From positions 22,351,211 through 22,415,210 of the forward strand of contig NC_092096.1 in NCBI RefSeq assembly GCF_045679555.1: a DNA stretch of 64,000 nt, in the 5' to 3' direction. The notes under the pieces are model-generated. The model was not told where the DNA came from, did no database searches, and worked only from the letters and a program-made list of their open reading frames with translations. Source of the stretch: Salvelinus alpinus. Its lineage: Eukaryota; Chordata; Actinopteri; Salmoniformes; Salmonidae. Position numbers and translations under genes: made by a program. Positions 18,594 through 63,200 of the stretch are shown here, in pieces (the stretch's first letter is position 1; each line of letters begins with the position of its first letter).

Positions 18594-19070
18594 CGGTAAC
18601 ACTACTTGACACCTAGTGTCATAACACGGTCATAATCATGTCATACTATGTCATAACATCTGACATAACTTGTCATATGCTCATAACACTGTTCCATATG
18701 TTTAGACCTGTTGTGACATATTACAATATTTTATGGGTGGTTATGACACAAGTTTCAAAACCCACAAAACCTACCACACAAGGCAAAACATTCCATTACA
18801 CCATAGCCTATGTGTCAACAGTATTTTTTTAAATTGACCATATTAAATTATCATTGTAATTGCGCACAACATTATGTCAGACATGCACTTACCCCAATGC
18901 TCTGTTTCTGATGACTGGGATGAATGCAAGAGCAGAAGCAGGACAAGACACCCTCTGACAGATAACTGATATAAGGGCATGTACGTGACAGGCCCATCTG
19001 GCGTATATGATTATGGTCATAATGCTTCTTGACAGTCTCAAAGTGTATTTTCTTAGTCCAAGTAAAGTGA
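18594..19070. repeat. Possible degenerate TIR repeat rich in GTCATAA
   Basis: The left part repeats TGTCATAACA-type motifs many times (18618-18750). The right part ends in a CCAAGTAAAGTGACA stretch that partly complements the left GTAACACTACTTGACAC. This fits a decayed fold-back element, but the ends are poorly matched. Confidence 0.35.
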
Positions 19071-36078: not shown

Positions 36079-36217
36079 ATGGTTTTCTCATCGTCCCAGC
36101 AAGTGGTGGTCGCATTTACGGCGGTGTTGTTTGCATTTGTGGTGTTCCCTAGAATGTTCGGCGTAGGGTCCGGAGCGAAGGAAACTAGAGGTTTTGATGC
36201 ACGCTACAACAGAAAAG
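36079..36217 (+). CDS. ccdc107: ccdc107 exon 1
   Basis: It encodes MVFSSSQQVVVAFTAVLFAF, then VVFPRMFGVGSGAKETRGFD and ARYNRK. The ATG at 36079 is the first in frame. The donor is GTAGCATG. Confidence 0.8.
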
Positions 36218-39200
36218 GTAGCATGAATTTTAAAATAGTATTTGAATTGGCAATGTGACTGTACCGTCATATTGTGTAGGCCTATGCAATGTTTTGCTCC
36301 TGCCATGGTATATTTGTTTAGTAGCCTAACGTTTTACTATGTTCAACATTGTCAAACTTATTTAAAACAAGATATCTGTCTGTTTGCAAAAGTGTGCAAC
36401 ATCGTAGCCTCTTAAGCCTTTAGCAATAAGACAACTGTCATGAATAGGCCTGTTCATCACCATCGTCTTCAAATTGTCTCATGTTGTTTCTCAGCGGGTC
36501 CGGGACCAGGACCAGGTGCAGTGAGAGGGCAGCCGGTCAACAAGAACACGGCTGGCTCCATGAATAAAGCTCAGACCCTGGAGAACATGCAGCAGATGAA
36601 GGTGCTGATGGAGCAGGAGATGAAGGGTGACAAATACAAAACCAACAGCAACAAGGGCTATGTGTTCACGCTGATGCCGCTCTACGCCGTCGGAGTCGGC
36701 CTCTTTGCAGCATACAAATTTCTGAAGGTATAGAATGGAGCAGGAATTCCACCATTGAAAAATGTTGTTGCGGTGATGATTGTGATGGGGTTGCTGGGGG
36801 ATATCTAAACATGCAAGCACACACACACACACACACACACAGACAGACACAGACAGACGGACACACGTGATTGTATGAACTATGGTAATACTGGCAGTCT
36901 GAGCCTGAGTGGACTAAACACACATACGGCTCAGACTGTTGATATCTCCCTTCTATCTCTAAGATCAAGTCTGCAGATGACTCTCAAGCCCAAAAGAACA
37001 AGGATGCCAAAGGTCCCAAGAAGTCGGAGGAGACAGGTGTGTTCTGTGTCCATGTGGTGTGCCACAACGGTCTGTTTGCATACCTTTGTTTATCTTACCC
37101 ATCATGCAGATGCTTTTTTTTACATGGTTTTACATGGTGGTGGCTTTGTCTCTTTCTATAGAGAATCAGCTGTTTGTTTTACATGGTGGTGGCTTTGTCT
37201 CTTTCTATAGAGAATCAGCTGTTTGTTTTACATGGTGGTGTCTCTTTCCATAGAGAATCAGCTGTTTGTTTTACATGGTGGTGGCTTTGTCTCTTTCTAT
37301 AGAGAATCAGCTGTTTGTTTTACATGTTGGTGGCTTTGTCTCTTTCCATAGAGAATCAGCTGTTTGTTTTACATGGTAGCTTTGTCTCTTTCCATAGAGA
37401 ATCAGCTGTTTGTTTTACACGGTAGCTTTGTCTCTTTCCATAGAGAATCAGCTGTTTGTTTTACATGGTGGTGTCTCTTTCCATAGAGAATCAGCTGTTT
37501 GTTTTACATGGTGGTGGTGTCTCTTTCCATAGAGAATCAGCTGTTTGTTTTACATGGTAGCTTTGTCTCTTTCCATAGAGAATCAGCTGTTTGTTTTACA
37601 TGGTGGTGTCTCTTTCTATAGAGAATCAGCTGTTTGTTTTACATGGTGGTGGTGTCTCTTTCCATAGAGAATCAGCTGTTTGTTTTACATGGTAGCTTTG
37701 TCTCTTTCCATAGAGAATCAGCTGTTTGTTTTACATGGTAGCTTTGTCTCTTTCCATAGAGAATCAGCTGTTTGTTTTACATGGTAGCTTTGTCTCTTTC
37801 CATAGAGAATCAGCTGTTTGTTTTACATGGTGGTGTCTCTTTCCATAGAGAATCAGCTTACAGAGCTGGAGCAGCGGCTAGCGCAAACAGAGAAGATGCT
37901 CAACTCCATTCTCACCCAACTGGACCCATTGACAAGTTGGTAAGTAAGCCAACTGACCCATAAACCACGGAGCTCCGGTTTGTCGTCTTTTTCTGTGTAA
38001 ATATTGCTCTGTAAATAATACCCCATGTAATTAAATACATGTCTGTCGTGATTAAGACCAGTTTATCCTGACCAGGTAGTTACAGCAGTTATTAGGGGAC
38101 GTTGCATGGTCTTGATAAACTGTTGACACTTTTGACCCTGCTGAATCTAAGAGCGTTTATGGAAATGGGACTCTGGGTGGGGTGTGTTGACCAGGCACCA
38201 AATGGGAGATAGTGTTTTACCGACGCACATTTCTGTATCAATTGGGTGTTGGGTGAAGTGGCCCCTAGGGCCTAGACCTTGAGTTTTGACTCTCGGTTTC
38301 GCATTTCCCAAGACTAATGGTTAGGATTGGGGAAGCTGATCCTAGATCTGTACCTAGAGAAACTTCACCCCGGAGCTATGACCTGAACCTACGAAGGGCA
38401 ACCGGTCAGGGACTGCGTGTCTCAGAGTTCTGTCCTCAGTGACCCTGCTCTCTCCTGGCCATTTCACTCCTCTCCAGTGTCAAGTCTGTGGCCCAGGAAC
38501 AGAAGAACGAGATCATGTCCCAGCTCCAGTCCATCCGCCACCTGATGAAGAAGAGAGGCATGGACTGTCCACCCCTTAACATTGAAGGTATGTGGCCCCA
38601 CCTCCTGCTGGGACATGTTCATTAGGCACCAAATGGAAGAATACAGACAAATAGGGACTACTTTGGGTTTCAGTTATCAAAGGTGCATACGCACACAAAA
38701 AAGACTAAACCTTACGTTCTGCAAGTTTTCCCGCTATGGTTGGTATTTATCATATTTGAACTTGATACGCTATGGTTGGTATTTATCATATTTGAACTTG
38801 ACAGGAAAGTGTGCGTATCTTCACACACATCTCAGAATCTGCCTACTCACAACTTCTTGTGGTTGAAGAATTGTATCGCAAGCAAATATTGTTATTTTGT
38901 GGAAGCTGCGTTGCTTGGTGACACCGGAATTACTGTAATTACTAACAATGCTGATAAACACAAAGCGTAAATGATAAAACAGATTTTCCGTTGGTAAGGA
39001 GATCGCTGGGCTTGTATATTTATTATGCAAATCAATCATATCGCAGGACATTGTCCTTTTCTGACATGAATGGTTTATTCCTGCTACTATATGACAAATA
39101 ATTACCATTCAATAGTTCAAGCTACCTGACAGGAAATAGACCGGCAGCCTAGGCTATTTCAAGTATTTAACAGTAGGCTATGGGGTAGAGTATTACCGTG

Positions 39201-40325
39201 CAGGAGTGTGACCTCATAACATATTTAATTTCAGAGTCTATACCAAGGCAGGAGATAGAAACACAATCTATTGATGAACAAAATATTGAGCAACAGTTGG
39301 TCTTTTGTTTTGAAGCGGTGTGGGCTGTAGCACTTAGTTTAACATTTCTCAAATAGACCGTCAATCTTGCGGAATTTGCAGCCAGAGTTTGGGTCTCGCA
39401 TGTTTAGTTTGAAAAAGTCACTGTAAAAAGATTCAAACATTCTGCCAACACCCACAATTTGTTGGGTACGCAGATTTTAGGATCTCCACGTGCCCAGAAT
39501 TTAGTTTGAAATTCAGCACAATTGATAAATGAGGCCCCTGGATAAAAATAAACTATTTTGTTTTCCGTTGCAACAAAAAAATACACTTTTAAAATGTTTT
39601 CTGTTGTGTTCCCTATTTTATATTACTTTGGTTTTCTTGGTATGGTATCCAAAATGGGCCAGGTTGGAGCACCTCTCTCCTGAATGGTTTGGCATTCAAC
39701 TCCAAAAAGTAACTTTCTGACAATTTTTATTTTATTTTTTTACTGTGAACAAACATGTATGGAAAGTTTTTTTGGGGGGGGCAAAATTAAATTAACTTTA
39801 TTTGTCTTGGGGGAAAGGAGTTGGGCAGCAAGAGTCACACACCCCATCATACATGATCCACATGAGTAGTATTGACATCATGACTCAAACACACCCATCC
39901 TGAAATGGGGTGTCTATTTGCGGCGCACGGTCGCAACTTTTGCCCTTTTCCGTCTTTCAGAGCCGCAGTGCGAGAGGAACCTGGATGACCTCATCGAGTC
40001 TCTGGCAGCCCACGGCGACACCTCGCCAGAGGTGGTCGCTCCTGCGGAGGACGATCAAAGTGGTGTCGTGAAAGAGGAGGAGCCAGTCCACCTCCAGCAG
40101 CACCGCCCTGAATCCAAGGATGAGTACTCAGCAACCGGCGCTGAGGAGGAGGACATGCCCTCCTTGGATGATTCTTGTGAGACCGACATTGAGGACATGG
40201 GCCCAGCCCAGAGCATTCCAGAAGAAAGGCCTTCAACTGGGCTCAGACGACGCAACAGGCTGGAATGAACAGAAAAAAGGGCTTGTTTTAAACTGTACAT
40301 GAATAAAGCCATACATGTATTTTCT
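36079..40325 (+). CDS. ccdc107: Coiled-coil domain-containing protein 107
   Basis: Six exons (36079-36217, 36495-36727, 36964-37036, 37849-37939, 38478-38587, 39961-40268) join in frame into 317 residues; all junctions are GT/AG and phases agree. The protein has an N-terminal hydrophobic signal or anchor (VVVAFTAVLFAFVVFP), a second hydrophobic segment GYVFTLMPLYAVGVGLFAAY, a charged linker, a coiled coil with LEQRLAQTEKMLNSILTQLD, and an acidic C-terminus. The LAQTExxLNxxxxQLDPL block and the preceding YK-ended membrane segment identify CCDC107, a little-studied membrane protein. Start: ATG at 36079 in GGATATGG context. No stop or frameshift is seen. Function in the cell is not established. 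Confidence 0.85.
36495..36727 (+). CDS. ccdc107: ccdc107 exon 2
   Basis: A 233-bp exon from the glycine/proline-rich GPGPGPGAVRGQP through TLENMQQMKVLMEQEMKGDK to the hydrophobic segment and FLK. The acceptor is TTTCTCAG, the donor GTATAG. Confidence 0.85.
36818..36840. repeat. (CA)n microsatellite in ccdc107 intron 2
   Basis: A 23-bp run of CA followed by AGACAGACACAGACAGACGG, a compound tract. Confidence 0.95.
36964..37036 (+). CDS. ccdc107: ccdc107 exon 3
   Basis: A 73-bp exon encoding IKSADDSQAQKNKDAKGPKK and SEET, a lysine-rich linker. The donor GTGTGT is unusual but usable. Confidence 0.75.
37121..37860 (+). repeat. Minisatellite repeating the ccdc107 exon 4 acceptor
   Basis: Sixteen tandem copies of a 43-, 46- or 49-bp unit. 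Each has TCTCTTTCCATAG (or CTATAG) plus AGAATCAGCT, then GTTTGTTTTACATGG and a variable GGTGGTGTC or TAGCTTTGTC part. The last copy is the real acceptor and start of exon 4 (37849). All unit lengths equal 1 modulo 3, so use of an upstream acceptor would change the frame. Confidence 0.95.
37849..37939 (+). CDS. ccdc107: ccdc107 exon 4 (coiled coil)
   Basis: A 91-bp exon encoding ENQLTELEQRLAQTEKMLNS and ILTQLDPLTS. The acceptor TTCCATAG and the first exon bases AGAATCAGCT are the last copy of a 16-copy array occupying the preceding intron. Confidence 0.9.
38215..38370. repeat. Decayed fold-back MITE
   Basis: GAAGTGGCCCCTAGGGCCTA at the left and CTAGAGAAACTTCACCCC at the right are imperfect complements, with GCTGATCCTAGATCTG between. 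It lies in ccdc107 intron 4. Confidence 0.4.
38478..38587 (+). CDS. ccdc107: ccdc107 exon 5
   Basis: A 110-bp exon encoding VKSVAQEQKNEIMSQLQSIR, then HLMKKRGMDCPPLNIE. The acceptor is CTCTCCAG, the donor GTATGTGG. Confidence 0.88.
38588..39960. other. ccdc107 last intron
   Basis: A 1.37-kb intron with an imperfect two-copy duplication (CTATGGTTGGTATTTATCAT at 38733 and 38770) and AT-rich DNA. No gene is recognised inside. Confidence 0.6.
39961..40268 (+). CDS. ccdc107: ccdc107 last exon
   Basis: A 308-bp coding exon after acceptor GTCTTTCAG. It encodes PQCERNLDDLIESLAAHGDT, a long acidic tail, and ends TGLRRRNRLE with a TGA at 40266-40268. Confidence 0.88.
40302..40307 (+). terminator. ccdc107: ccdc107 poly(A) signal
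   Basis: AATAAA lies 34 bases after the ccdc107 stop. The 3' UTR is therefore very short, with cleavage expected around 40320-40330. Confidence 0.8.
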
Positions 40326-41054: not shown

Positions 41055-41905
41055 AAATCAGGGCTCTCCAACCCTGTTCCTGGAGAGCTACTGTCCAGTG
41101 GGTCTCTCCAACCCTGTTCCTGAAGAGCTACTGTCCAGTGGGTTTCTCTCCAACCCTGTTCCTGGAGAGCTACTGTCCAGTGGGTTTCTCTCCAACCCTG
41201 TTTCTGAAGAGCTACTGTCCAGTGGGTTTCTCTCCAACCCTGTTCCTGGAGAGCTACTGTCCAGTGGGTTTCTCTCCAACCCTGTTCCTGGAGAGCTACT
41301 GTCCAGTGGGTTTCTCTCCAACCCTGTTCCTGGAAGCTACTCTCCAGTGGGTTTCTCTCCAACCCTGTTCCTGGAGAGCTACTGTCCAGTGGATTTCTCT
41401 CCAACCCTGTTCCTGGAGAGCTACTGTCCAGTGGGTTTCTCTCCAACCCTGTTCCTGGAGAGCAACTGTCCAGTGGGTTTCTCTCCAACCCTGTTCCTGG
41501 AGAGCTACTGTCCAGTGGGTCTCTCCAACCCTGTTCCTGAAGAGCTACTGTCCAGTGGGTTTCTCTCCAACCCTGTTCCTGGAGAGCTACTGTCCAGTGG
41601 GTTTCTCTCCAACCCTGTTCCTGGAGAGCAACTGTCCAGTGGGTTTCTCTCCAACCCTGTTCCTGGAGAGCAACTGTCCAGTGGGTTTCTCTCCAACCCT
41701 GTTCCTGGAGAGCTACTGTCCAGTGGGTCTCTCCAACCCTGTTCCTGGAGAGCTACTGTCCAGTAGGTTTCTCTCCAACCCTAATCTAGCACACGTGATC
41801 CTAATAATTAGCTGGTTGATAAGGGGAATCCAGTTAGTTATAACGGGTTTGTGTGAACCTACCGGAGGCTAGCTCTTCAGGAGTAGAGTTGGAGAGCCCT
41901 GGTCT
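41055..41905. mobile_element. MITE carrying an internal 42-bp minisatellite
   Basis: Inverted outer ends, CAGGGCTCTCCAACCCTG at the left and GTTGGAGAGCCCTGGTC at the right, enclose the array. After the array come CTAATAATTAGCTGGTTGAT and GCTCTTCAGGAGTAGAG, the normal interior of such an element. The repeat unit is the left arm of the MITE itself. Confidence 0.8.
41068..41785. repeat. 42-bp minisatellite (about 17 copies)
   Basis: The unit is GGTTTCTCTCCAACCCTGTT plus CCTGGAGAGCTACTGTCCAGTG, with a few 38-39 bp variants. As 42 is a multiple of 3, open frames of up to 244 codons appear on both strands (repeating LSNPVPGELLSSGF and others). These are not genes. Confidence 0.95.
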
Positions 41906-46902: not shown

Positions 46903-48046
46903 TTGTGGCTGATCTATTCAACAAGTTAACCAGAGAGAGAGACACACTGACCTGACCAGTTCTGTTTTGCTCTTGGCAAGTGGTCCGAATCACGAGTTAT
47001 TATGAGAATGTAATTGATAGCCAATGTTGCTCGAATTAAACCACTCAGCATGCCATGTAGGCTAAATCAACGTGTTGAAATACAACCCAACAAATGGAAC
47101 CGAAAGTTTAACTATTTTCCTGCGGTTGCTGATGTCACAGATGTAAGGTGCTGAAAGGACAGCTCCCTCGCTTTGAAAGCGCATCTCGCGTCATTGTGAA
47201 ACCAGATCGAAGATAATTCCTATAAATAATTGCACAATGAAATGTAGGACCACACTCTGTGATGGAAATAGAACGGGAACCACGTGAGACATGTTTTTCA
47301 GTCAAGCAATCTGACCTGTTGAGAACACTCACGTTCAACATCTTATTTCGGCGAATCATAAAAGCTGAAAAAAGTTGCACTAGATATTCGTTGGCATAGA
47401 TTTCAACTATTTTGATTGCCAATCCAATAATGAGTGATCGTTGCTACATAGCAACATGAGCACGTGTGAGAGGATCGCTAGTAACACGGACGCACACACA
47501 CACTATAGCAACAGACAACCTGTGTACAGAAAGGGAGAGGGTGTGCCCTTGACGTCGTTTCTCGTCAAAGACTCACATTTCGGAGAGAACCATATCCAGG
47601 TTTGCTTACTTGCTATTCATCACGGCATTGTCATGACCTTTAACAAAAAGGGCACAGAGCTCAAGGTTACAAATCAATAATTGGAATGGTTTCGTTTGAC
47701 TTCACCTGTCCAAGTGTTGAGCGGAGAAGAGAGTAAAGACACCCCCAAGGCACACATAACCGGCGCTGCCTGTGCTTGGAGCTACTGGCTGACAGATCCT
47801 TCGCACAAGGAGGAACTAGAGGGAGTCTGACACGCGATAAGATCCTCTCTTCCAACTCACCAACAACGATGAGATTGGTAAAGCACTTTCACCGAGCGTA
47901 ATGAGAGCTCCAGGCTGAATTTGGAGTGGCTGCTCTCAGCTGAATCCAAAAGGGCTTTCGTGAGATTTTCTAACCAAACTGGGTGTGTACAGCACCGTGC
48001 CCGCTGTTACTCTGGACTGCACTCGATATACCTTATTTACCAAGTC
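46903..48046. other. Upstream region of the kcnc2-like gene
   Basis: About 1.1 kb with no coding frame that resembles a gene. The 47870-48046 stretch is probably 5' UTR. No TATA box or other clear promoter element can be assigned. Confidence 0.4.
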
Positions 48047-48094
48047 ATGTCTTATACAGAGCGATGGGTAAGTTCGACGACAACGAGAGGATAA
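48047..48094 (+). promoter_or_regulatory. Short uORF overlapping the kcnc2-like start
   Basis: An ATG 17 bases before the main ATG opens a 15-codon frame ([15 protein letters not shown]) that ends at a TAA inside the main coding sequence (48092-48094). Overlapping uORFs usually reduce translation of the main frame, if this part is in the mRNA. Confidence 0.5.
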
Positions 48095-48615
48095 TCCTCA
48101 ACGTTGGGGGAACCAGGCACGAGACGTACAAGAACACGCTGAGGACACTGCCGGGGACTCGGCTGGCCCTTCTTGCCTCCGATTCTGACATCGAGTCCGT
48201 TTTGGATCAGCTGCAACAAGTCCCCGGCTTCATAGAGTACAACACGCGGAACAACGAATACTTTTTTGACCGCCACCCAGGGGTATTCGCTTATGTCCTT
48301 AACTACTATCGAACCGGGAAACTCCATTGCCCAGCAGATGTTTGTGGTCCGCTGTTCGAGGAAGAGCTGTCCTTCTGGGGAATCGATGAGACGGACGTGG
48401 AGCCATGCTGCTGGATGACCTATCGCCAACACAGGGACGCCGAGGAGGCGCTCGACGTGTTCGACATAAACGTTGACAATGGAGACGACGACGAAGAGAC
48501 GGGGAAAAGACTCGGAATTGAGGAAGTGGTTGATCCTAATATCAGCCGCTGGAAAAAGTGGAGACCTGTGATTTGGAATCTATTTGAGGATCCCTATTCT
48601 TCCAGAGCGGCAAGG
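48064..48615 (+). CDS. kcnc2: Kv3-type voltage-gated K+ channel, first coding exon
   Basis: 184 codons from ATG (48064) to a donor GTAAGA at 48616. It encodes the cytoplasmic T1 tetramerisation domain: [16 protein letters not shown], then [20 protein letters not shown]. The zinc-binding HX5CX20CC motif follows (HCPADVC, 20 residues, then CC). After [14 protein letters not shown] comes an acidic linker, then [12 protein letters not shown] just before the first membrane segment, where Kv3 genes have an intron. MGKxxxNERxILNVGG, LALLAS, KRLGIE and SSRAAR favour KCNC2 (Kv3.2) over the other Kv3 genes. No lesion is seen. The S1-S6 exons lie beyond the window. Confidence 0.87.
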
Positions 48616-50156
48616 GTAAGAGCGCGCGCTTGTGTGGAGAGCTCACATAACAGTCCATGCACAACAAGTTCCCCCGATTCCTTCTTTGCACAGAAAAGTG
48701 TAATTACATTAGACATCAATTCCTCCTAATAAAATAAAAATGATTACACAAATATAACATACATTATACATTATTAACATTTTTAAATTCGTTGTAAGGG
48801 ACATAGGTTGTCTGCTTATTCACATTTCAGTGTGCATAAAATATGATTTCCCCACGACTGCTTTCATAAACACATTTTAAACTTGAATATAGTTCAATAA
48901 TTAAACTCGATATTTTTCCTCTTTTTGTCATACACAAGTATGCATCTAAACATATCAATGCACTATACTTGTGGTGCGTAAATACATATTTAAGTTAAAC
49001 TACACTACCGATCCATGATAATGAGAATAAGTAGAAATATTTAACGAATTAGATGACAGTTTTTTTTCCTGATACCACCAAATGAGTTTTTTTTCTTCTG
49101 TCGGTTGTGTTTGTTTGATATTGAGCATGACGTGTGATAGAGGGGTGATGGAATGGTCCATCGCTCAACAGAGATAGGCTAATGTAGAACCTGTGGTTAG
49201 ACACACCACCATATTACCAAATCGAGCCATTTATCTGCTGTCCTACACCAGAAACATTACGTATTTGTACCATTTATCTGCAGTCCTACACCAGAAACAT
49301 TACGTATTTGGCCTTAAGCCTACATTTACGAACAAGATTCGGGCGGTTATTTATTTAAAATTATTAATTCATTTCAAAATATAAGTTTAAAACATATCAA
49401 TTAATTTTAAATGTTTACCGCAGTAACTCACAACATGAGCCTAAATTCGATTATTGCAACAATGTAAACATGACCTTGAATTGATTGTTTTTGATTGAAA
49501 TGCTCATGGGCAATTTTACCTGTTGGAGTGAGATGTGCCCCGCATATTAATAGCCTGTGAGAGAAAGTATTTCAGAATCTTTACGTATCGCAGAGGGCAT
49601 TAGACTAATTGTCACTTACAATTGACTCTTTTGCATACTTGGTTATCTATCAGTTATTTATTGTTGATTTAAGTCGAATTCTATAGGTTGCTGTCAATCA
49701 TTTGTTCATTGTACACCTGGCAAACGTGTCTTCTCTTACTGAAATGTTAGGGTGAGCCTCCTACATATATATCTACCTATCAGTCCACACCTTATCCATG
49801 CGAACTGTATGCTCACATGACCAGTGAAGGACCTGGGTTTACTGGCCTGCAGTTGTTTTGCTCAATAGGCAGTAAATAACCATCTTATTGGCCGACTGGC
49901 TGTGGAGTCAGCGCTCCAGAGGCTCCTGGCCACTGTCATGTCACAATGTGTACCCCATCCTTTTCAGACTCTAATATGACCTCCTGTCTCATCTCCCTCC
50001 TGCCTAAACGGCCTTGTTTATATCCAGCTCATCTCTCACTGGCAGGAGGCCCATTAATAGCATATCCCTGGGGAGATTGTGCTGATGATGGTGCCTTGAA
50101 ACAGACAGGTCCGTCTTGAGCTAATAGAATAATGAAGCCAGCAAAGCTTGTCACTC
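48616..50156. other. kcnc2-like intron, first part
   Basis: No coding exon is recognised. A two-copy tandem duplication of about 41 bp (CATTTATCTGCTGTCCTACA with ACCAGAAACATTACGTATTT) lies at 49228-49311. The rest is AT-rich unique-looking sequence. Confidence 0.55.
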
Positions 50157-50401: not shown

Positions 50402-51789
50402 TTGCGTGAAAGCCCATATGACTGTGTGATCTCGCTTTCCATGGCCGATGTGAGCAAAACGTTAAAACAGGTTAACAATCATAAGGCCGCCAGGCCAGAT
50501 GGAATACCAGGGCGTGTTCTCAAAGCACGCGCAGACCAGCTGGCAGGTGTCTTCACAGACATTTTCAATCTCTCCTTGTCCCAGTCTGTAATCCCAACAT
50601 CATTTTAATTGACCACCGTTGTCCCTGTTCCCAAGAGCTCCAAGGTAACCTAACTAAATGACAATCGCCCTGTAGCACTCACATCTGTAATTATGAAGTG
50701 CTTTGAAAGGCTGGTCATGTCACACAACAACACCATGGCCGTGCATGACTCCAACACCATCATCATGAGTCAGCCAACAGGGAGGAGGTCAGAGACTTAG
50801 CAGTGTGGTGCTAGGACAACAATCTCTCCCTCTATGTTAGTAAGACCAAGGAGCTGATTGTGGACTACAGGGAGGAGGTCAGAGACTTAGCAGTGTGGTG
50901 CTAGGACAACAATCTCTCCCTCTATGTCAGTAAGACCAAGGAGCTGATTGTGGACTACAGGGAGGAGGTCAGAGATTTAGCAGTGTGGTGCTAGGACAAC
51001 AATCTCTCCCTCTATGTCAGTAAGACCAAGGAGCTGATTGTGGACTACAGGGAGGAGGTCAGAGACTTAGCAGTGTGGTGCTAGGACAACAATCTCTCCC
51101 TCTATGTCAGTAAGACCAAGGAGCTGATTGTGGACTACAGGGAGGAGGTCAGAGACTTAGCAGTGTGGTGCTAGGACAACAATCTCTCCCTCAATGTCAG
51201 TAAGACCAAGGAGCTGATTGTGGACTACAGGGAGGAGGTCAGAGACTTAGCAGTGTGGTGCTAGGACAACAATCTCTCCCTCTATGTCAGTAAGACCAAG
51301 GAGCTGATTGTGGACTACAGGGAGGAGGTCAGAGACTTAGCAGTGTGGTGCCAGGACAACAATCTCTCCCTCTATGTCAGTAAGACCAAGGAGCTGATTG
51401 TGGACTATAGAAGAAAGAGGGGAGAGCACACTCCCATCCACATCGACAGAGCTTTTGTGGAGCGGGTCGAGAGCTTCAAGTTCCTTGGTGTCCACATCAT
51501 TAAGGACTTAAAATGGTCCACACACACCCGCACAGTTATGAAGAGGGCACGACAACAGCTCTTTCCCCTCAGGAGGCTGAAAAGATTTGTCATGGGCCCT
51601 CAGATCCTCAAAAAGTTCTACAGCTGCACCATCGAGAGCATCTTGACTGGCTGCATCACCACCTGGTATGGCAATATCACCGCCCTTGACAGCAAAGCGC
51701 TACAAAGGGTGGTGCGGACCGGAAAACGGTATCGAAGCGTTGGCTCTCAGACCAACAAGCTCAGAGACAGCTTCTACCCCAAGCTATAA
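50402..51789 (+). pseudogene. LINE reverse transcriptase, internally deleted and amplified
   Basis: 50402-50608 encodes an RT start ([20 protein letters not shown]) and [15 protein letters not shown]-type sequence. 51310-51789 encodes the end, with DLAVWCQDNNLSLYVSKTKE, VESFKFLGVHI and a C-terminal ALQRVVRTGKRY. The catalytic YADD/FADD region is deleted. The middle holds seven in-frame 90-bp repeats. It belongs to the Rex1/CR1-like group by the KFLGVHI and VSKTKELIVDY segments. Confidence 0.8.
50780..51410 (+). repeat. 90-bp tandem repeat within the RT coding sequence
   Basis: Seven copies of a 90-bp unit (30 codons, REEVRDLAVWC-x-DNNLSLYVSKT and on to ELIVDY), nearly identical. Six copies have TAG at position x and the last has CAG (Gln). 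The array therefore amplified a unit that already carried a stop. Confidence 0.95.
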
Positions 51790-51849: not shown

Positions 51850-52075
51850 ACTCTATCTTGCCCTGACCCTGTGCACATCCACTTTATATACACACAATAT
51901 ACACACTCACTCACACACACTAAGCTTTTAAACCCTCACATATTCACAAACACTACACACACACACGCATACCGACACAACACAAACACACACACACGCA
52001 TACCGACACAACACAAACACACACACATACATACATACACGCACATTCACACAGACACACTTTTACACTCATTAT
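51850..52075. repeat. CA-rich tract with short tandem units
   Basis: ACACACACGCATACCGACAC and following bases are repeated twice (51958-52016) within a broader (CA)-rich region of the LINE 3' UTR. Confidence 0.8.
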
Positions 52076-52225: not shown

Positions 52226-53830
52226 CAGTGGGGCAAAAAAGTATTTAGTCAGCCACCAATTGTGCAAGTTCTCCCACTTAAAAAGATGAGAGAGGCCTGT
52301 AATTTTCATCATAGGTACACTTCAACTATGACAGACAAAATGAGAAAAGAAAATCCAGAAAATCACATTGTAGGATTTTTAATGAATTTATTTGCAAATT
52401 ATGGTGGAAAATAAGTATTTGGTCACCTACAAACAAGCAAGATTTCTGGATCTCACAGACCTGTAACTTCTTCTTTAAGAGGCTCCTCTGTCCTCCACTC
52501 GTTACCTGTATTAATGGCACCTGTTTGAACTTGTTATCAGTATAAAAGACACCTGTCCACAACCTCAAACAGTCACAATCCAAACTCCACTATGGCCAAG
52601 ACCAAAGAGCTGTCAAAGGACACCAGAAACAAAATTGTAGACCTGCACCAGGCTGGGAAGACTGAATCTGCAATAGGTAAGCAGCTTGGCTTGAAGAAAT
52701 CAACTGTGGGAGCAATTATTAGGAAATGGAAGACATACAAGACCACTGATAATCTCCCTCGATCTGGGGCTCCACGCAAGATCTCACCCCGTGGGGTCAA
52801 AATGATCACAAGAACGGTGAGAAAAAAATCCCAGAACCACACGGGGGGACCTAGTGAATGACCTGCAGAGAGCTGGGACCAAAGTAACAAAGCCTACTAT
52901 CAGTAACACACTACGCCGCCAGGGACTCAAATCCTGCAGTGCCAGACGTGTCCCCCTGCTTAAGCCAGTACATGTCCAGGCCCATCTGAAGTTTGCTAGA
53001 GAGCATTTGGATGATCCAGAAGAAGATTGGGAGAATGTCATATGGTCAGATGAAACCAAAATAGAACTTTTTGGTAAAAACTCAACTCGTCGTGTTTGGA
53101 GGACAAAGAATGCTGAGTTGCATCCAAAGAACACCATACCTACTGTGAAGCATGGGGGTTGGAACATCATGCTTTGGGGCTGTTTTTCTGCAAAGGGACC
53201 AGGACGACTGATCCGTGTAAAGGAAAGAATGAATGGGGCCATGTATCGTGAGATTTTGAGTGAAAACCTCCTTCCATCAGCAAGGGCATTGAAGATGAAA
53301 CGTGGCTGGGTCTTTCAGCATGACAATGATCCCAAACACACCGCCCGGGCAACGAAGGAGTGGCTTCGAAAGAAGCATTTCAAGGTCTGGAGTGGCCTAG
53401 CCAGTCTCCATATCTCAACCCCATAGAAAATCTTTGGAGGGAGTTGAAAGTGCGTGTTGCCCAGCAACAGCCCCAAAACATCACTGCTCTAGAGGAGATC
53501 TGCATGGAGGAATGGGCCAAAATACCAGCAACAGTGTGTGAAAACCTTGTGAAGACTTACAGAAAACGTTTGACCTCTGTCATTGCCAACAAATGGTATA
53601 TAACAAAGTATTGAGATAAACTTTTGTTATTGACCAAATACTTATTTTCCACCATAATTTGCAAATAAATTCATAAAAAATCCTACAATGTGATTTTCTG
53701 GATTTTTCTTTCTCATTTTGTCTGTAATAGTTGAAGAGTACCTATGATGAAAATTACAGGCCTCTCTCATCTTTTTAAGTGGGAGAACTTGCACAATTGG
53801 TGGCTGACTAAATACTTTTTTAACCCACTG
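52226..53830 (+). mobile_element. Tc1-like transposon (GGGGCAAAAAAGTATTTAGT family), copy 1
   Basis: A 1605-bp element with ends CAGTGGGGCAAAAAAGTATT and a slightly mutated complement (AATACTTTTTTAACCCACTG), inserted in the 68-bp array. The left TA is CA. It is the same family as 56072-57652. Confidence 0.94.
52592..53614 (+). pseudogene. Tc1-like transposase with two single-base indels
   Basis: Starts [20 protein letters not shown]. One extra A in an A-run at about 52825 and one missing C near 53387 shift the frame, giving open parts 52592-52861, 52854-53426 and 53360-53614. Otherwise it matches the intact copy at 56438 almost throughout. The usual Pro in LNPIENLW is kept. Confidence 0.93.
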
Positions 53831-55757
53831 TACATATCTACCTCAAATACCTTATTATTATCTATCCTGATGTCTAGTCACTTTACCTTGCCTTCATGTA
53901 CATATCTACCTCAAATACCTTATTATTATCTATCCTGATGCCTAGTCACTTTACCCTGCCTTCATGTACACATCTACCTCAAATACCTTATTATTTTCTA
54001 TCCTGATGCCTAGTCACTTTACACTGCCTTCATGTACATATCTACCTCAAATACCTTATTATTATCTATCCTGATGCTTAGTCACTTTACCCTGCCTTCA
54101 TGTACACATCTACCTCAAATACCTTATTATTTTCTATCCTGATGCCTAGTCACGTTACCCTGCCTTCATGTACACATCTACCTCAAATACCTTATTATTA
54201 TCTATCCTGATGCTTAGTCACTTTATCCTGCCTTCATGTACACATCTACCTCAAATACCTTATTATTATCTATCCTGATGCCTAGTCACTTTACCCTGCC
54301 TTCATGTACATATCTACCTCAAATACCTTATTATTATCTATCCTGATGCTTAGTCACTTTACCCTGCCTTCATGTACACATCTACCTCAAATACCTTATT
54401 ATTATCTATCCTGATGCTTAGTCACTTTACACTGCCTTCATGTACATATCTACCTCAAATACCTTATTATTATCTATCCTGATGCTTAGTCACTTTACCC
54501 TGCCTTCATGTACACATCTACCTCAAATACCTTATTATTATCTATCCTGATGCCTAGTCACTTTACCATGCCTTCATGTACATATCTACCTCAAATACCT
54601 TATTATTATCTATCCTGATGTTTAGTAACTTCACACTGCCTTCATGTACATATCTACCTCAAATACCTTATTATTATCTATCCTGATGCCTAGTCACTTT
54701 ACCCTGCCTTCATGTGCACATCTACCTCAAATACCTTATTATTATCTATCCTGATGCTTAGTCACTTTACACTGCCTTCATGTACATATCTACCTCAAAT
54801 ACCTTATTATTATCTATCCTGATGCTTAGTCACTTTACCCTGCCTTCATGTACAAATCTACCTCAAATACCTTATTATTATCTATCCTGATGCTTAGTCA
54901 CTTTGCACTGCCTTCATGTACATATCTACCTCAAATACCTTATTATTATCTATCCTGATGCCTAGTCACTTTACCATGCCTTCATGTACACATCTACCTC
55001 AAATACCTTATTATTATCTATCCTGATGCTTAGTCACTTTACCCTGCCTTCATGTACACATCTACCTCAAATACCTCATTATTATCTATCCTGATGCTTA
55101 GTCACTTTACCCTGCCTTCATGTACATATCTACCTCAAATACCTTATTATTATCTATCCTGATGCTTAGTCACTTTACCCTGCCTTCATGTACATATCTA
55201 CCTCAAATACCTTATTATTATCTATCCTGATGCTTAGTCACTTTACCCTGCCTTCATGTACATATCTACCTCAAAAACCTTATTATTATCTATCCTGATG
55301 CCTAGTCACTTTACCCTGCCTTCATGTACATATCTACCTCAAATACCTTATTATTATCTATCCTGATGCTTAGTCACTTTACCCTGCATTCATGTACATA
55401 TCTACCTCAAATACCTTATTATTATCTATCCTGATGCTTAGTCACTTTACCCTGCCTTCATGTACATATCTACCTCAAATACCTTATTATTATCTATCCT
55501 GATGCTTAGTCACTTTACCATGCCTTCATGTACACATCTACCTCAAATACCTTATTATTATCTATCCTGATGCCGAGTCACTTTACCCTGCCTTCATGTA
55601 CACATCTACCTCAAATACCTTATTATTATCTATCCTGATGTTTAGTCACTTCACACTGCCTTCATGTACATATCTACCTCAAATACCTTATTATTATCTA
55701 TCCTGATGCCTAGTCACTTTACCCTGCCTTCATGTACACATCTACCTCAAATACATT
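53831..55757. repeat. 68-bp minisatellite, main block
   Basis: About 28 tandem copies of the 68-bp unit, with alternating TGCCTAG/TGCTTAG and TACATATC/TACACATC variants. The unit is a segment of a LINE 3' UTR (compare TTATCTATCCTGTTGCCTAG at 14583). Confidence 0.96.
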
Positions 55758-56071
55758 GTACCTCTGCACATTGATCTGGTACTGGTACTTCCCGTATATA
55801 GCTCCACATTGATCTGGTACTGGTACTCCCTGTAAATAGCTATACATTGATTAGGTACTGATACTCCCGGTAAATAGCTCCACATCGATCTGGTACTGGT
55901 ACTCCCTATATATAGCTCCACATTGATCTGGTACTGGTACTTCCTGTATATAGCTCCACATTGATCTGGTACTGATACTCCCTGCATATACTGTAGCTCC
56001 ACATTGATCTGGTACTGGTACTTCCTGTATATAGCTCCACATTGATCTAGTACTGGTACTCCTTGTATATA
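55758..56071. repeat. 38-bp array, left part
   Basis: About eight copies of the 38-bp unit (AGCTCCACATTGATCTGGTA, CTGGTACTCCCTGTATAT). The first follows CATTGTACCTCTGCACATTG, the unexpanded LINE 3' UTR junction. It is split from the main array by the Tc1 element at 56072. Confidence 0.93.
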
Positions 56072-57652
56072 CAGTGAGGCAAAAAAGTATTTAGTCAGCC
56101 ACCAATTGTGCAAGTTCTCCCACTTAAAAAGATGAGAGAGGCCTGTAATTTTCCTCATAGGTACACTTCAACTATGACAGACAAAATGAGAAAAAGAATT
56201 CCAGAAAATCACATTGTAGGATTTTTAATGAATTTATTTGCAAATTATGGTGGAAAATAAGTATTTGGTCACCTACAAACAAGCAAGATTTCTGGCTCTC
56301 ACAACCCTGTAACTTCTTCTTTAAGAGGCTCCTCTGTCCTCCACTCGTTACCTGTATTAATGGCACCTGTTTGAACTTGTTATCAGTATAAAAGACACCT
56401 GTCCACAACCTCAAACAGTCACACTCCAAACTCCACTATGGCCAAGACCAAAGAGCTGTCAAAGGACACCAGAAACGAAATTGTAGACCTGCACCAGGCT
56501 GGGAAGACTGAATCTGCAATAGGTAAGCAGCTTGGCTTGAAGAAATCAACTGTGGGAGCAATTATTAGGAAATGGAAGACATACAAGACCACTGATAATC
56601 TCCCTCGATCTGGGGCTCCACGCAAGATCTCACCCCGTGGGGTCAAAATGATCACAAGAACGGTGAGAAAAAATCCCAGAACCACACGGGGGGACCTAGT
56701 GAATGACCTGCAGAGAGCTGGGACCAAAGTAACAAAGCCTACCATCAGTAACACACTACGCCGCCAGGGACTCAAATCCTGCAGTGCCAGACGTGTCCCC
56801 CTGCTTAAGCCAGTACATGTCCAGGCCCGTCTGAAGTTTGCTAGAGAGCATTTGGATGATCCAGAAGAAGATTGGGAGAATGTCATATGGTCAGATGAAA
56901 CCAAAATAGAACTTTTTGGTAAAAACTCAACTCGTCGTGTTTGGAGGACAAAGAATGCTGAGTTGCATCCAAAGAACACCATACCTACTGTGAAGCATGG
57001 GGGTGGAAACATCATGCTTTGGGGCTGTTTTTCTGCAAAGGGACCAGGACGACTGATCCGTGTAAAGGAAAGAATGTATGGGGCCATGTATTGTGAGATT
57101 TTGAGTGAAAACCTCCTTCCATCAGCAAGGGCATTGAAGATGAAACGTGGCTGGGTCTTTCAGCATGACAATGATCCCAAACACACCGCCCGGGCAACGA
57201 AGGAGTGGCTTCGTAAGAAGCATTTCAAGGTCCTGGAGTGGCCTAGCCAGTCTCCAGATCTCAACCACATAGAAAATCTTTGGAGGGAGTTGAAAGTCCG
57301 TGTTGCCCAGCAACAGCCCCAAAACATCACTGCTCTAGAGGAGATCTGCATGGAGGAATGGGCCAAAATACCAGCAACAGTGTGTGAAAACCTTGTGAAG
57401 ACTTACAGAAAACGTTTGACCTCTGTCATTGCCAACAAAGGGTATATAACAAAGTATTGAAATAAACTTTTGTTATTGACCAAATACTTATTTTCCATCA
57501 TAATTTTCAAATAAATTCATTAAAAATCCTACAATGTGATTTTCTGTCATAGTTGAAGTGTACCTATGATGAAAATTACAGGCCTCTCTCATCTTTTTAA
57601 GTGGGAGAACTTGCACAATTGGTGGCTGACTAAATACTTTTTTGCCCCACTG
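56072..57652 (+). mobile_element. Tc1-like transposon with intact transposase frame, copy 2
   Basis: A 1581-bp element flanked by TA. The outer 80 bp of the two ends match with only about two differences (CAGTGAGGC versus CAGTGGGGC; TTTTCCTC versus TTTTCATC). The inverted arms extend to about 200 bp and contain inner direct repeats (AAGTATTTGGTCA). The right arm lacks about 25 bp present in the left. It is inserted in the 38-bp array. Confidence 0.96.
56438..57460 (+). CDS. Tc1-like DDE transposase, full-length 340-residue frame
   Basis: The ATG at 56438 opens an uninterrupted frame of 340 codons, the normal length for Tc1 transposases. An N-terminal helix-turn-helix region ([20 protein letters not shown]) and a second DNA-binding segment ([20 protein letters not shown]) precede the catalytic core. 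The triad is D153 ([11 protein letters not shown]), D244 ([12 protein letters not shown]) and E279 (IENLWRELK), with 34 residues between D244 and E279 (DD34E). One unusual residue is His277 in DLNHIENLW, where relatives, including the copy at 52592, have Pro. It catalyses cut-and-paste transposition at TA sites if active. Confidence 0.93.
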
Positions 57653-59279
57653 TAGCTCCACATTGATCTGGTACTGGTACTCCCTGTGTATAGCTCCACA
57701 TTGATCTGGTACTGGTACTCCCTGTATATAGCTCCACATTGATCTGGTACTGGTACTCCCTGTTTATAGCTCCACATTGATCTGGTACTGGTACTCCCTG
57801 TATGTGGCTCCACATTGATCTGGTACTGGTCCTCCCTGTGTATAGCTCCACATTGATCTGGTACTGGTACTCCCTGTATATAGCTCCACATTGATCTGGT
57901 ACTGGTACTCCCTGTATATAGCTATACATTGATCTGGTACTGGTACTCCCTGTATGTGGCTCCACATTGATCTGGTACTGGTCCTCCCTGTGTATAGCTC
58001 CACATTGATCTGGTACTGGTACTCCCTGTTTATAGCTCCACATTGATCTGGTATTGGTACTCCCTGTGTATAGCTCCACATTGATCTGGTACTGGTACTC
58101 CCTGTATATAGCTCCACATTGATCTGGTACTGATACTCCCTGTGTATAGCTCCGCATTGATCTGGTACTGGTACTCCCTGTATATAGCCCCACATTGATC
58201 TGGTACTGGTACTCCCTGTATATAGCTCCACATTGATCTGGTACTGGTACTCCCTATATATAGCTCCACATTGATCTGGTACTGGTACTCCCTGTATATA
58301 GCCCCACATTGATCTGGTACTCCCTGTATATAGCCCCACATTGATCTGGTACTGGTACTCCCTGTGTATAGCTCCACATTGATCTGGTACTGGTACTCCC
58401 TGTATATAGCCCCACATTGATCTGGTACTCCCTGTATATAGCCCCACATTGATCTGGTACTGGTACTCCCTGTGTATAGCTCCACATTGATCTGGTACTG
58501 GTACTTCCTGTATATAGCTTCACATTGATCTGGTACTGGTACTCCCTATATATAGCTCCACATTGATCTGGTACTGGTACTCCCTGTATATAGCTCCACA
58601 TTGATCTGGTACTGGTACTCCCTATATATAGCTCTACATTGATCTGGTACTGGTACTCCCTGTATATAGCTCCACATTGATCTGGTACTGGTACTCCCTG
58701 TATATAGCTCTACATTGATCTGGTACTGGTACTCCCTGTATATAGCCCCACATTGATCTGGTACTGGTACTCCCTGTATATAGCTCCACATTGATCTGGT
58801 ACTGGTCTCCCTGTATATAGCCCCACATTGATCTGGTACTGGTCTCCCTGTATATAGCCCCACATTGATCTGGTACTGGTACTCCCTGTATATAGCTCCA
58901 CATTGATCTGGTACTGGTCTCCCTGTATATAGCCCCACATTGATCTGGTACTGGAACTCCCTGTATATAGCTCCACATTGATCTGGTACTGGTACTCCCT
59001 GTATATAGCTCCACATTGATCTGGTACTGGAACTACCTGTATATAGCTCCACATTGATCTGGTACTGGTCTCCCTGTATATAGCCCCACATTGATCTGGT
59101 ACTGGAACTCCCTGTATATAGCTCCACATTGATCTGGTACTGGTACTCCCTGTATATAGCTCCACATTGATCTGGTACTGGTACTCCCTGTATGTAGCTC
59201 CACATTGATCTGGTACTGGTACTACCTGTATATAGCTCCGCATTGATCTGGTACTGGTACTCCCTGTATATAGCTCCAT
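57653..59279. repeat. 38-bp minisatellite, main block
   Basis: About 43 copies of the 38-bp unit, with variants lacking 8 bases (CTGGTCTCC) or carrying GTGTATAG, GTATGTGG and CCCCACATTG. Overlapping minus-strand frames (repeating YREYQYQINVELYTGSTSTR and others) are artefacts of a period of 2 modulo 3. Confidence 0.96.
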
Positions 59280-59480
59280 TCTTGTGTATTTTATCATATT
59301 CCTCTTGTGTTAGTTACTATTTTATTTTGTATTATTATTTTTAAACTCTGCATCGTTGTGAAAGGTTCGTAAGCAAGCATTTCACTGTACAGTCTACACC
59401 AGGTGTATTCAGGGCATGTGATAAATACAATTTGATTTGATCAGCATGCCTTCTCTGAGACACTTTATGAATAAAGGACC
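59280..59480 (+). other. LINE 3' terminus and short spacer
   Basis: The LINE 3' end is at 59280-59442, followed by 38 bases with TGCCTTCTCTGAGACACTTT before the next minisatellite. Confidence 0.7.
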
Positions 59481-60110
59481 TGGCCACTCTCCCTTTTGCT
59501 ATTGATACATAGCTACACTGGCCACTCTCCCTTTTGATACATAGCTACACTGACCACTCTCCCTTTTGATACATAGCTACACTGGCCACTCTCCCTTTTG
59601 ATACATAGCTACACTGGCCACTCTCCCTTTTGATACATAGCTACACTGGCCACTCTCCCTTTTGATACATAGCTACACTGGCCACTCTCCCTTTTGCTAT
59701 TGATACATAGCTACACTGGCCACTCTCCCTTTTGATACATAGCTACACTGGCCACTCTCCCTTTTGCTATTGATACATAGCTACACTGGCCACTCTCCCT
59801 TTTGATACATAGCTACACTGGCCACTCTCCCTTTTGATACATAGCTACACTGGCCACTCTCCCTTTTGATACAAAGCTACACTGGCCACTCTCCCTTTTG
59901 CTATTGATACATAGATACACTGGCCACTCCCCTTTTGATACATAGCTACACTGGCCACACTCCCTTTTGCTATTGATACATAGATACACTGGCCACTCCC
60001 CTTTTGATACATAGCTACACTGGCCACTCCCATTTTGATACATAGCTAGCTGGCCACTCCCTTTTGATACAAAGCTACATTGGCCACTCCCCTTTTGATA
60101 CATAGATACA
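59481..60110. repeat. 32-bp minisatellite
   Basis: About 19 copies of TGGCCACTCTCCCTTTTGAT plus ACATAGCTACAC, with a 38-bp variant carrying TTTTGCTATTGATAC. Minus-strand Cys/Val-rich frames over it are not genes. Confidence 0.95.
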
Positions 60111-60209
60111 GTCAGTAACAAAGTTATTTATTTATTTGATCCCTCTTTTTCTCCTGCATCTTGACATAACTTGTCAATCAAAGTCTCCATTAGATAACTG
60201 TCTTTGACC

Positions 60210-63200
60210 CCACACCAGAAGTATAGAGAGCACCAGACCAGGAGGATAGAGAGCACCACACCAGGAGTATAGAGAGCACCACACCAGGAGGATAGAGAGC
60301 ACCACACCAGGAGGATAGAGAGCACCACACCAGGAGTATAGAGAGCACCACACCAGGAGGATAGAGAGCACCACACCAGGAGTATAGAGAGCACCACACC
60401 AGGAGTTTAGAGAGCACCACACCAGGAGTTTAGAGAGCACCACACCGGGAGTATAGAGAGCACCACAACAGTAGGATAGAGAGCACCACACCAGGAGTAT
60501 AGAGAGCACCACACCAGGAGTTTAGAGAGCACCACACCGGGAGTATAGAGAGCACCACAACAGGAGGATAGAGAGCACCACACCAGGAGTATAGAGAGCA
60601 CCAGACCAGGAGGATAGAGAGCACCACACCAGGAGTATAGAGAGCACCACACCAGGAGGATAGAGAGCACCACACCAGGAGTATAGAGAGCACCACACCA
60701 GGAGTTTAGAGAGCACCACACCGGGAGTATAGAGAGCACCACAACAGGAGGATAGAGAGCACCACACCAGGAGTATAGAGAGCACCACACCAGGAGTATA
60801 TAGAGCACCACACCAAGAGTATAGAGAGCACCACACCAGGAGTATAGAGAGCACCACACCAGGAGTATAGAGAGCACCACACCAGGAGTATAGAGAGTAT
60901 AGAGAGCACCACACCAGGAGTATAGAGAGTATAGAGAGCACCACACCAGGAGCATAGAGAGCACCACACCAGGAGTATAGAGAGCACCACACCAGAAGTA
61001 TAGAGAGCACCAGACCAGGAGGATAGAGAGCACCACACCAGGAGTATAGAGAGCACCACACCAGGAGGATAGAGAGCACCACACCAGGAGGATAGAGAGC
61101 ACCACACCAGGAGTATAGAGAGCACCACACCAGGAGGATAGAGAGCACCACACCAGGAGTATAGAGAGCACCACACCAGGAGTTTAGAGAGCACCACACC
61201 AGGAGTGTAGAGAGCACCACACCGGGAGTATAGAGAGCACCACAACAGGAGGATAGAGAGCACCACAGCAGGAGTATAGAGAGCACCACACCAGGAGTTT
61301 AGAGAGCACCACACCGGGAGTATAGAGAGCACCACAACAGGAGGATAGAGAGCACCACACCAGGAGTATAGAGAGCACCAGACCAGGAGGATAGAGAGCA
61401 CCACACCAGGAGTATAGAGAGCACCACACCAGGAGGATAGAGAGCACCACACCAGGAGTATAGAGAGCACCACACCAGGAGTTTAGAGAGCACCACACCG
61501 GGAGTATAGAGAGCACCACAACAGGAGGATAGAGAGCACCACAACAGGAGGATAGAGAGCACCACACCAGGAGTATAGAGAGCACCACACCAGGAGTATA
61601 GAGAGCACCACACCAAGAGTATAGAGAGCACCACACCAGGAGTATAGAGAGCACCACACCAGGAGTATAGAGAGCACCACACCAGAAGTATAGAGAGTAT
61701 AGAGAGCACCACACCAGGAGTATAGAGAGTATAGAGAGCACCACACCAGGAGCATAGAGAGCACCACACCAGGAGTATAGAGAGCACCACACCAGGAGTA
61801 TAGAGAGCACCGCACCAGGAGGATAGCGAGCACCACACCAGGAGTATAGAGAGCACCACACCAGGAGGATAGAGAGCACCACACCAGGAGGATAGAGAGC
61901 ACCACACAAGGAGGATAGAGAGCACCACACCAGGAGGATAGAGAGCACCACACCAGGAGGATAGAGAGCACCACACCAGGAGTATAGAGAGCACCACACC
62001 AGGAGTATAGAGAGCACCACACCAGGAGTATAGAGAGCACCACACCAGGAGTATAGAGAGCACCACACCAGGAGGATAGAGAGCACCACACCAGGAGGAT
62101 AGAGAGCACCACACCAGGAGTATAGAGAGCACCACACCAGGAGGATAGAGCGCACCACACCAGGAGGATAGAGAGCACCACACCAGGAGTATAGAGAGCA
62201 CCACACCAGGAGGATAGAGAGCACCACACCAGGAGTATAGAGAGCACCACACCAGGAGGATAGAGCGCCCCACACCAGGAGTATAGAGAGCACCACACCA
62301 GGAGGATAGAGAGCACCACACCAGGAGGATAGAGAGCACCACACCAGGAGGATAGAGAGCACCACACAAGGAGGATAGAGAGCACCACACCAGGAGGATA
62401 GAGAGCACCACACCAGGAGTATAGAGAGCACCACACCAGGAGTATAGAGAGCACCACACCAGGAGTATAGAGAGCACCACACCAGGAGTATAGAGAGCAC
62501 CACACCAGGAGGATAGAGAGCACCACACCAGGAGGATAGAGAGCACCACACCAGGAGTATAGAGAGCACCACACCAGGAGGATAGAGCGCACCACACCAG
62601 GAGGATAGAGAGCACCACACCAGGAGTATAGAGAGCACCACACCAGGAGGATAGAGAGCACCACACCAGGAGTATAGAGAGCACCACACCAGGAGGATAG
62701 AGAGCACCACACCAGGAGTATAGAGAGCACCACACCAGGAGGATAGAGCGCCCCACACCAGGAGTATAGAGAGCACCACACCAGGAGGATAGAGAGCACC
62801 ACACCAGGAGGATAGAGAGCACCACACCAGGAGTATAGAGAGCACCACACCAGGAGGATAGAGCGCATCACACCAGGAGTATAGAGAGCACCACACCAGG
62901 AGGATAGAGAGCACCACACCAGGAGTATAGAGAGCACCACACCAGGAGGATAGAGAGCACCACACCGGGAGTATAGAGAGCACCACACCGGGAGGATAGA
63001 GAGCACCACACCGGGAGTATAGAGAGCACCACACCGGGAGGATAAAGAGCACCACACCAGGAGGATAGAGAGCACCACACCAGGAGGATAGAGAGCACCA
63101 CACCAGGAGGATAGAGAGCAACACACCAGGAGGATAGAGCGCACCACACTAGGAGTATAGAGAGCACCACACCAGGAGTATAGAGAGCACCACACCAGGA

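Follow-up and report, generated by a model that had tools for sequence, protein, structure and literature searches.

Intron 3 of the ccdc107 gene of Salvelinus alpinus is largely filled by a minisatellite that crosses into exon 4. Of the 16 tandem copies of the 3′ splice site of this exon, the authentic one (37848|37849) comes last. The gene lies in the 64,000-nucleotide (nt) stretch of DNA that was analysed, hereafter called the window (C11:22351211-22415210). Positions without a prefix are those of the window, and all ccdc107 features are on the + strand. Tandem repeats that cross exon–intron boundaries were named mirages in the amphioxus gene Adh3 and were later described in the globin genes BflGb6 and BflGb9 (PMC3087553), and the ccdc107 array is a large new example of this known kind. 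We assign a probability of about 0.72 to the reading that a mirage minisatellite straddles intron 3 and exon 4 of ccdc107, that it is tolerated by means of exon definition, and that its decoy acceptors would be unproductive.

The acceptor array in intron 3

An exact count of the motif ATAGAGAATCAGCT yielded 16 occurrences in 37037-37939, with the last copy at the exon 4 boundary. Tandem Repeats Finder (TRF) reports a single array at 37138..37858 (period 46, 15.7 copies, score 1130), together with a higher-order period of 135, and the array occupies about 88% of the 812-nt intron (37037..37848, from the gene model). Its 15 full units of 43, 46 or 49 bp continue through 10 bases at the start of exon 4 and thereby present 16 acceptors, whose AG ends are separated by eight spacings of 46, four of 43 and three of 49 nt, all equal to 1 modulo 3. 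These results bear out an earlier sequence-only reading of this DNA, in which the authentic acceptor was described as the last of 16 copies, the unit as the acceptor plus the first 10 exon bases, and the unit lengths as 43, 46 and 49, each 1 modulo 3. Its wording of "sixteen copies" is correct for the acceptors but not for the repeat itself, which comprises only 15 full units plus the real boundary.

The most upstream decoy acceptor located by the motif count is the ATAG at 37158..37161, and decoys 2 through 15 have AG ends at 37210, 37253, 37302, 37351, 37397, 37443, 37486, 37532, 37578, 37621, 37667, 37713, 37759 and 37805. The last of these (37802..37805) lies closest to exon 4, and according to the computed translation splicing there would lengthen the transcript by 43 nt and alter the frame. 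Every copy has a branch-point-like TTTAC and a pyrimidine tract ahead of ATAG, followed by 10 bases as at the start of exon 4, and judged by sequence each is a complete 3′ splice site. The A of TTTAC, which conforms to yUnAy, is located 23–29 nt before the AG in all 16 cases, a pattern match rather than proof of branching; for the authentic acceptor the candidate is at 37822..37826, with 23 nt from its A to the G of AG.

Comparison of the authentic ATAG (37845..37848, placed by the gene model) with the decoys revealed that four of the 15, those ending at 37253, 37486, 37532 and 37667, are identical to it over 23 nt, while a fifth differs by one base and the rest differ by 3 or 4. Positions −1 to −4 and −6 to −15 are invariant before all 16 AGs, and position −5, the base preceding ATAG, varies between C (12 sites) and T (4 sites). 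Likewise, following the 15 upstream AGs, positions +1 to +22 are invariant, the ten exon-copy bases included. The units as a whole are not all alike and differ among themselves. The upstream sites had been proposed as potential decoys, and they do qualify as such in being locally nearly as good as the authentic site.

The repeat unit spans the exon–intron boundary in the manner of a mirage, since each of the 16 copies joins the end of the intron, with its ATAG, to 10 nt of exon 4. NAGNAG tandem acceptors, which lie 3 nt apart, resemble the array in offering a choice of neighbouring acceptors, but the ccdc107 sites are 43–49 nt apart and each has its own branch-point-like motif. Nor do they have the AG|GT arrangement of recursive splice sites, as AG|AGAATC is present at 16 of 16.

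The 21-mer TCTTTCYATAGAGAATCAGCT has 31 matches in the 2.37-Gb genome, 16 at ccdc107 and 15 at a second copy of the locus (see below), and its reversed control has none, a number of matches well above what chance would give. Because this core was found only at these two places, the repeat arose in place, where it most likely grew by ordinary slippage or unequal exchange. A match on C2 (L003, 67% identity) proved to be an unrelated 21-bp minisatellite. The 1-modulo-3 rule is obeyed by 30 of the 30 units of both locus copies; we rejected it as a sign of selection, since unit lengths vary by 3-nt steps in a GGT-rich stretch.

The gene model consists of six coding exons that join into an uninterrupted 317-codon frame and extend over 4190 nt, start and stop codons included. 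Exon 1 (coding part, ATG to donor, 36079..36217) was placed by open frame, GT donor and homology, and exons 2 (36495..36727) and 3 (36964..37036, ending in GAGACAG|GTGTGT) by AG/GT boundaries, frame and homology. Exon 4 (37849..37939, 91 nt, ENQLTELEQRLAQTEKMLNSILTQLDPLTS, donor TTG|GTAAGT) follows from frame and homology, whereas exons 5 (38478..38587) and 6 (coding part to TGA, 39961..40268) were taken from the gene model with homology. The product matches Pfam RIC3 (PF15361) at 1.2e-38. A protein search returned 401 hits at E≤0.001, and several of the best 120 are named CCDC107; among these 120 listed matches, the bearers of that name are salmonids, pike, eel and other fish. The closest named proteins are salmonid, and the 12 closest hits, which are from salmonids where named, are 93–97% identical to the product. 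The gene name given in the sequence-only reading is therefore right, and exon 4 is a real exon, as had been claimed, because the 317-amino-acid (aa) frame is intact and these 12 proteins are so similar.

The mere overlap of an array with a splice junction is not remarkable here. Of the window, 18.4% consists of minisatellites with a period of at least 20, and over the first 50 kb their share is 5.75%. At the 4.3% density that the other arrays reach in 1-50000, the probability that at least one of 10 junctions is overlapped is about 0.36, under naive random placement and with 15 arrays of period at least 20 chosen by hand, two short arrays (18617-18677 and 51955-52034) and nested rows being left out. 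What is notable is that an intact coding boundary ends a series of 16 copies. Minisatellite growth can thus cross a coding splice boundary and leave the gene intact.

Upstream acceptors and the choice of the last site

No upstream acceptor yields full-length CCDC107. With exons 4–6 otherwise spliced as usual, 14 of the 15 give products of 172–180 aa whose stops lie 201–796 nt before the last exon junction. The fifteenth and nearest acceptor, 43 nt upstream of the authentic one, gives a frameshifted product of 226 aa with a stop 8 nt before that junction. Nonsense-mediated decay follows a 50-55-nt rule for stops upstream of the last exon junction; by this rule the fourteen products should be decay targets, and the nearest-acceptor product should not.

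The position of the premature stops is explained by the unit lengths. Because each unit is 1 modulo 3, consecutive retained units are read in consecutive frames. No stop interrupts the first retained unit in the incoming frame, and all 14 premature stops fall in the second, where eight are the acceptor's own TAG and six are an earlier TAG within GGTAGC. The acceptor TAG is in the second-unit frame for 10 of the 10 distinct unit types of both locus copies, and two unit types (46 nt, with GGTAGC) hold the additional earlier in-frame TAG. The earlier statement that inclusion of three units preserves the frame holds as arithmetic, but for 14 of the 15 choices translation encounters an in-frame stop in the second retained unit.

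We also scored candidate 5′ splice sites using a donor matrix. The best of the 73 GTs in the array scores 0.52, below all five donors of the gene (0.99–5.96, with that of exon 4 at 5.09), although the margin is small with respect to the exon 1 donor at 0.99. By this measure, the proposal that the array is a source of cryptic exons finds no backing, as no array GT scores as high as any gene donor.

The canonical exon 3/exon 4 junction is present in 120 of 120 listed homologues (of 401 hits). The junction motif was found in 119 of 121 fetched proteins; P0095 is one residue off, and the 121st (P0121) is not a homologue hit. Six entries known solely from source "lgn" (P0001, P0004-P0007 and P0010) encode 313–317 aa on contigs of 1124–1998 nt and appear to be spliced, since these contigs are shorter than the 4190-nt gene described here. 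Searches for array isoforms returned no protein at E≤10 for one retained unit (six candidates) and no spliced form for two, where only P0121, which contains intron sequence, was recovered; these negatives are limited by decay, clustering and length filters.

Because nearby sequence cannot separate the authentic site from at least four decoys, something farther off must do so, most likely the exon body. The 16 near-identical complete acceptors in one intron thus represent a natural competition experiment. The 45 nt 3′ of the authentic AG are 67% purine and 11% U, compared with 36–44% purine and 40–47% U for the 15 decoys. Exon definition favours an acceptor that adjoins an exon body, and this principle, together with the purine-rich body and the good donor of exon 4, would favour the last acceptor. 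The spliceosome would accordingly join the exon 3 donor to the sole acceptor with a purine-rich exon body after it, which exon definition would select across the 91 nt to the exon 4 donor. Rare products of upstream acceptors would be unproductive owing to a TAG in the second retained unit, whether that of the acceptor or one lying slightly before it, and most of these RNAs would be removed by nonsense-mediated decay. The array is therefore probably tolerated as near-neutral baggage that perhaps lowers mRNA output slightly through leakage.

Several points weigh against this interpretation. The salmonid proteins come from species that may or may not carry the array and hence are no proof that splicing ignores decoys, and protein databases would lack decoy isoforms whose RNA had been lost to decay. 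RNA accessibility was rejected as a discriminator, since among the 16 AGs the last does not stand out in the prediction. Furthermore, the array in P0121 and the near-identity of the two locus copies, both described below, would also fit a constrained element.

A second copy of the locus and a related array

The ccdc107 locus is found again at C11:22193469-22195271, with all six exons and 16 acceptors. Successive spacings in this copy are 49, 43, 49, 49, 46, 46, 40, 46, 46, 43, 49, 46, 46, 46 and 43 nt. In order, 12 of the 15 units are identical between the two copies; the remaining three are set apart by a single substitution, by a loss of 3 nt and by a gain of 3 nt. The arrays align with one substitution and three gap runs over 708 aligned bases, and the downstream flanks are equally close (one substitution over 2099). 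The number of acceptors is the same, 16 and 16, with no length variation between these two copies that would bear on the splicing buffer or length-dependent switch suggested in the sequence-only reading.

The second copy is carried by a 207-kb contig (C11:22140718-22348463, L009-L030) that is bordered by a 100-N gap on each side and repeats the window region. It is broadly collinear with the window contig over the part compared (all but about 96 kb), apart from insertions and inverted blocks. In the contig that precedes this 207-kb contig, the terminal 1.1 kb shows a 97% match to the beginning of the window contig, which is what a second copy retained as an alternative haplotype would produce; this matching end is itself repetitive and has weaker overlapping matches. 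Counting against a haplotype, approximately the last 3.3 kb of the second-copy contig have no other full copy. We regard it as probable, although not proven, that the second ccdc107 copy is an allele rather than a paralogue. The ohnologous locus, which had been suggested as a comparison, was not found in this assembly, where the 12 protein matches correspond to six exons in each of the two C11 copies.

A related array was recovered from elsewhere. P0121, the sole return of the two-unit isoform search, is a protein of 127 aa from a 2292-nt JGI metagenomic contig. It proceeds from exon 3 through intron 3 to "...SLSIENQLFVLHGGCVSFHRESAVCFTWWLCLSP", which is genomic read-through, and it aligns to both ccdc107 copies in this genome. 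The codon count indicates a first acceptor 123 nt into the intron (125 here) and two 46-nt units, if the final stop is the acceptor TAG. A related array is thus evidently present in another salmonid-like genome or haplotype. P0121 is annotated as "hypothetical protein" although it consists of salmonid-like ccdc107 exon 3, intron and array.

That the assembly has stuttered over one true acceptor is hardly credible in light of these data. Tandem arrays are error-prone, and the scaffold does hold a probable false duplication. However, 16 acceptors occur on each of two separate contigs, where the order of the units agrees but each contig has differences of its own, the units differ from one another, and P0121 runs from intron 3 into two units. 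An array carried by two contigs, whether these are alleles or paralogues, makes an assembly slip unlikely.

Known relatives and alternative explanations

The amphioxus globin report describes the BflGb6 repeat as an intron 3′ end joined to an exon 5′ part, with 6 and 3 units on two haplotypes (PMC3087553). Many, but not all, of the repeats retain splice signals, the authentic copy is found in transcripts, and Adh3 data along with reverse-transcription PCR on the globins suggest that regular splicing is undisturbed (PMC3087553). The ccdc107 unit has the same composition as that of BflGb6, but it differs in its 16 acceptors, in its size (43–49 bp versus 150–160 bp, with 10–72 bp for Adh3) and in the equal copy number of its two versions. 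It also differs from the amphioxus mirages in residing in a salmonid and in that each upstream choice is computed to be unproductive. Canestro et al. (2002) are said to have described the Adh3 mirage minisatellites, for which somatic instability was reportedly observed.

A second salmonid case exists in irak3. In intron 4 of the rainbow trout gene, the first 15–17 nt of exon 5 are repeated four times directly upstream, in a unit of about 40 bp with a TAG acceptor (PMC6763605). This array is also present in our genome as four exact matches at C11:11469161-11469297, within L035 (C11:11468801-11469700) on the minus strand and with spacings of 39, 39 and 40 in transcript order. Its last copy runs into RNHRLVITYSDVIEGTRHFHQ..., a 50-aa fragment whose best solved-structure matches are human-type IRAK3 chains 6ziw and 6ruu (E 1e-8), while the Pfam kinase match is only sub-threshold (E 0.034). 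Each copy reads CTAG|GTAGAA, which juxtaposes acceptor and GT, and all three upstream acceptors meet a stop, in the last copy's frame. As described for trout, irak3 resembles ccdc107 in repeating an exon start and its acceptor just upstream of the exon, but the trout array has 4 or 5 listed repetitions, is spaced at 39, 39 and 40 here, and has GT directly after the acceptor.

Rainbow trout and this genome share the irak3 array, which suggests that salmonids, too, have recurrent and persistent mirages, a kind first named in amphioxus. How often a boundary is amplified in this way, which the sequence-only reading had declared not known to it, is thereby answered only in part: the kind has a name, and irak3 supplies a second salmonid case. 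Our literature search was not aimed at ccdc107 and did not use the term "mirage", and we do not claim that reports of salmonid mirages or of this locus are absent.

A regulatory function, in which 15 competing acceptors slow or misdirect intron 3 splicing, yield RNA that is prone to decay or retains the intron, and set the output by array length, appears unlikely, even though every unit reads as a full acceptor, none of the 15 upstream choices is productive (a requirement for a poison switch), and a related array exists in the salmonid-like P0121. Human splicing decoy exons are described as carrying both splice sites and regulating intron retention, which they promote while rarely being spliced in (PMC12017769). 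The ccdc107 array shares with them the presence of non-productive splice sites within an intron, but it appears to offer acceptors only, its GTs scoring at most 0.52 against the 0.99–5.96 of the gene donors by the donor matrix. The equal number of acceptors in the two locus copies and the reported failure of amphioxus mirages to disturb splicing (PMC3087553) also argue against regulation. A broader and rather improbable possibility is that mirages are recurrent and inherited in salmonid genes such as ccdc107 and irak3 and persist as built-in poison-acceptor arrays. If this were so, units of 1 modulo 3 in ccdc107 would put a stop, the acceptor UAG among them, in frame once at least two units are retained, and array length could set the amount of pre-mRNA lost.

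Very unlikely, in our judgment, is that the array represents an intermediate of intron gain or boundary sliding, wherein a unit is later recruited as a small exon and the rest becomes a new intron. Such a route was proposed for amphioxus mirages (PMC3087553), and in human segmental duplications internal tandem repeats at exon–intron boundaries are reported to have made novel introns, mostly with alternative transcripts (PMC2812944). The ccdc107 minisatellite is like those repeats in altering an exon–intron boundary, but it multiplies an old acceptor inside an existing intron. Zhuo et al. (2007) reportedly described introns derived from tandem arrays. From the sequence, a 24-nt unit exon ending in ATG|GTAGCT would preserve the frame; however, the donors within the array are weak, the start of exon 4 is conserved in the 120 listed homologues, and no new exon was seen. 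The idea that upstream acceptors diversify the protein by appending array-coded peptide to CCDC107 can be almost entirely discounted: the open first unit would allow it, but no upstream acceptor regains the exon 4 frame without a stop, and no such protein emerged from the one-unit or two-unit searches. The reading of a tolerated mirage minisatellite therefore remains the one that we favour.

Other repeats and open frames were observed in the window. A second large minisatellite (42 bp, 17 copies) lies just 3′ of ccdc107 at 41064-41782, and a minisatellite-dense block with periods of 68, 38, 32 and 23 bp occupies 53829-64000, where the last array (60210-64000) reaches the window end and is compatible with periods of 46 and 69 as well. 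An open frame at 47974-48729 contains a BTB_2 domain of the potassium-channel tetramerisation type (6e-27) and is presumably Kv3-like. At 50777-51407, seven copies of a 90-bp unit extend into the open frame 51265-51789, which matches Pfam ALKBH8_N (1.4e-8); we tentatively take this frame and the 90-bp repeats to be a piece of a reverse-transcriptase-type element.
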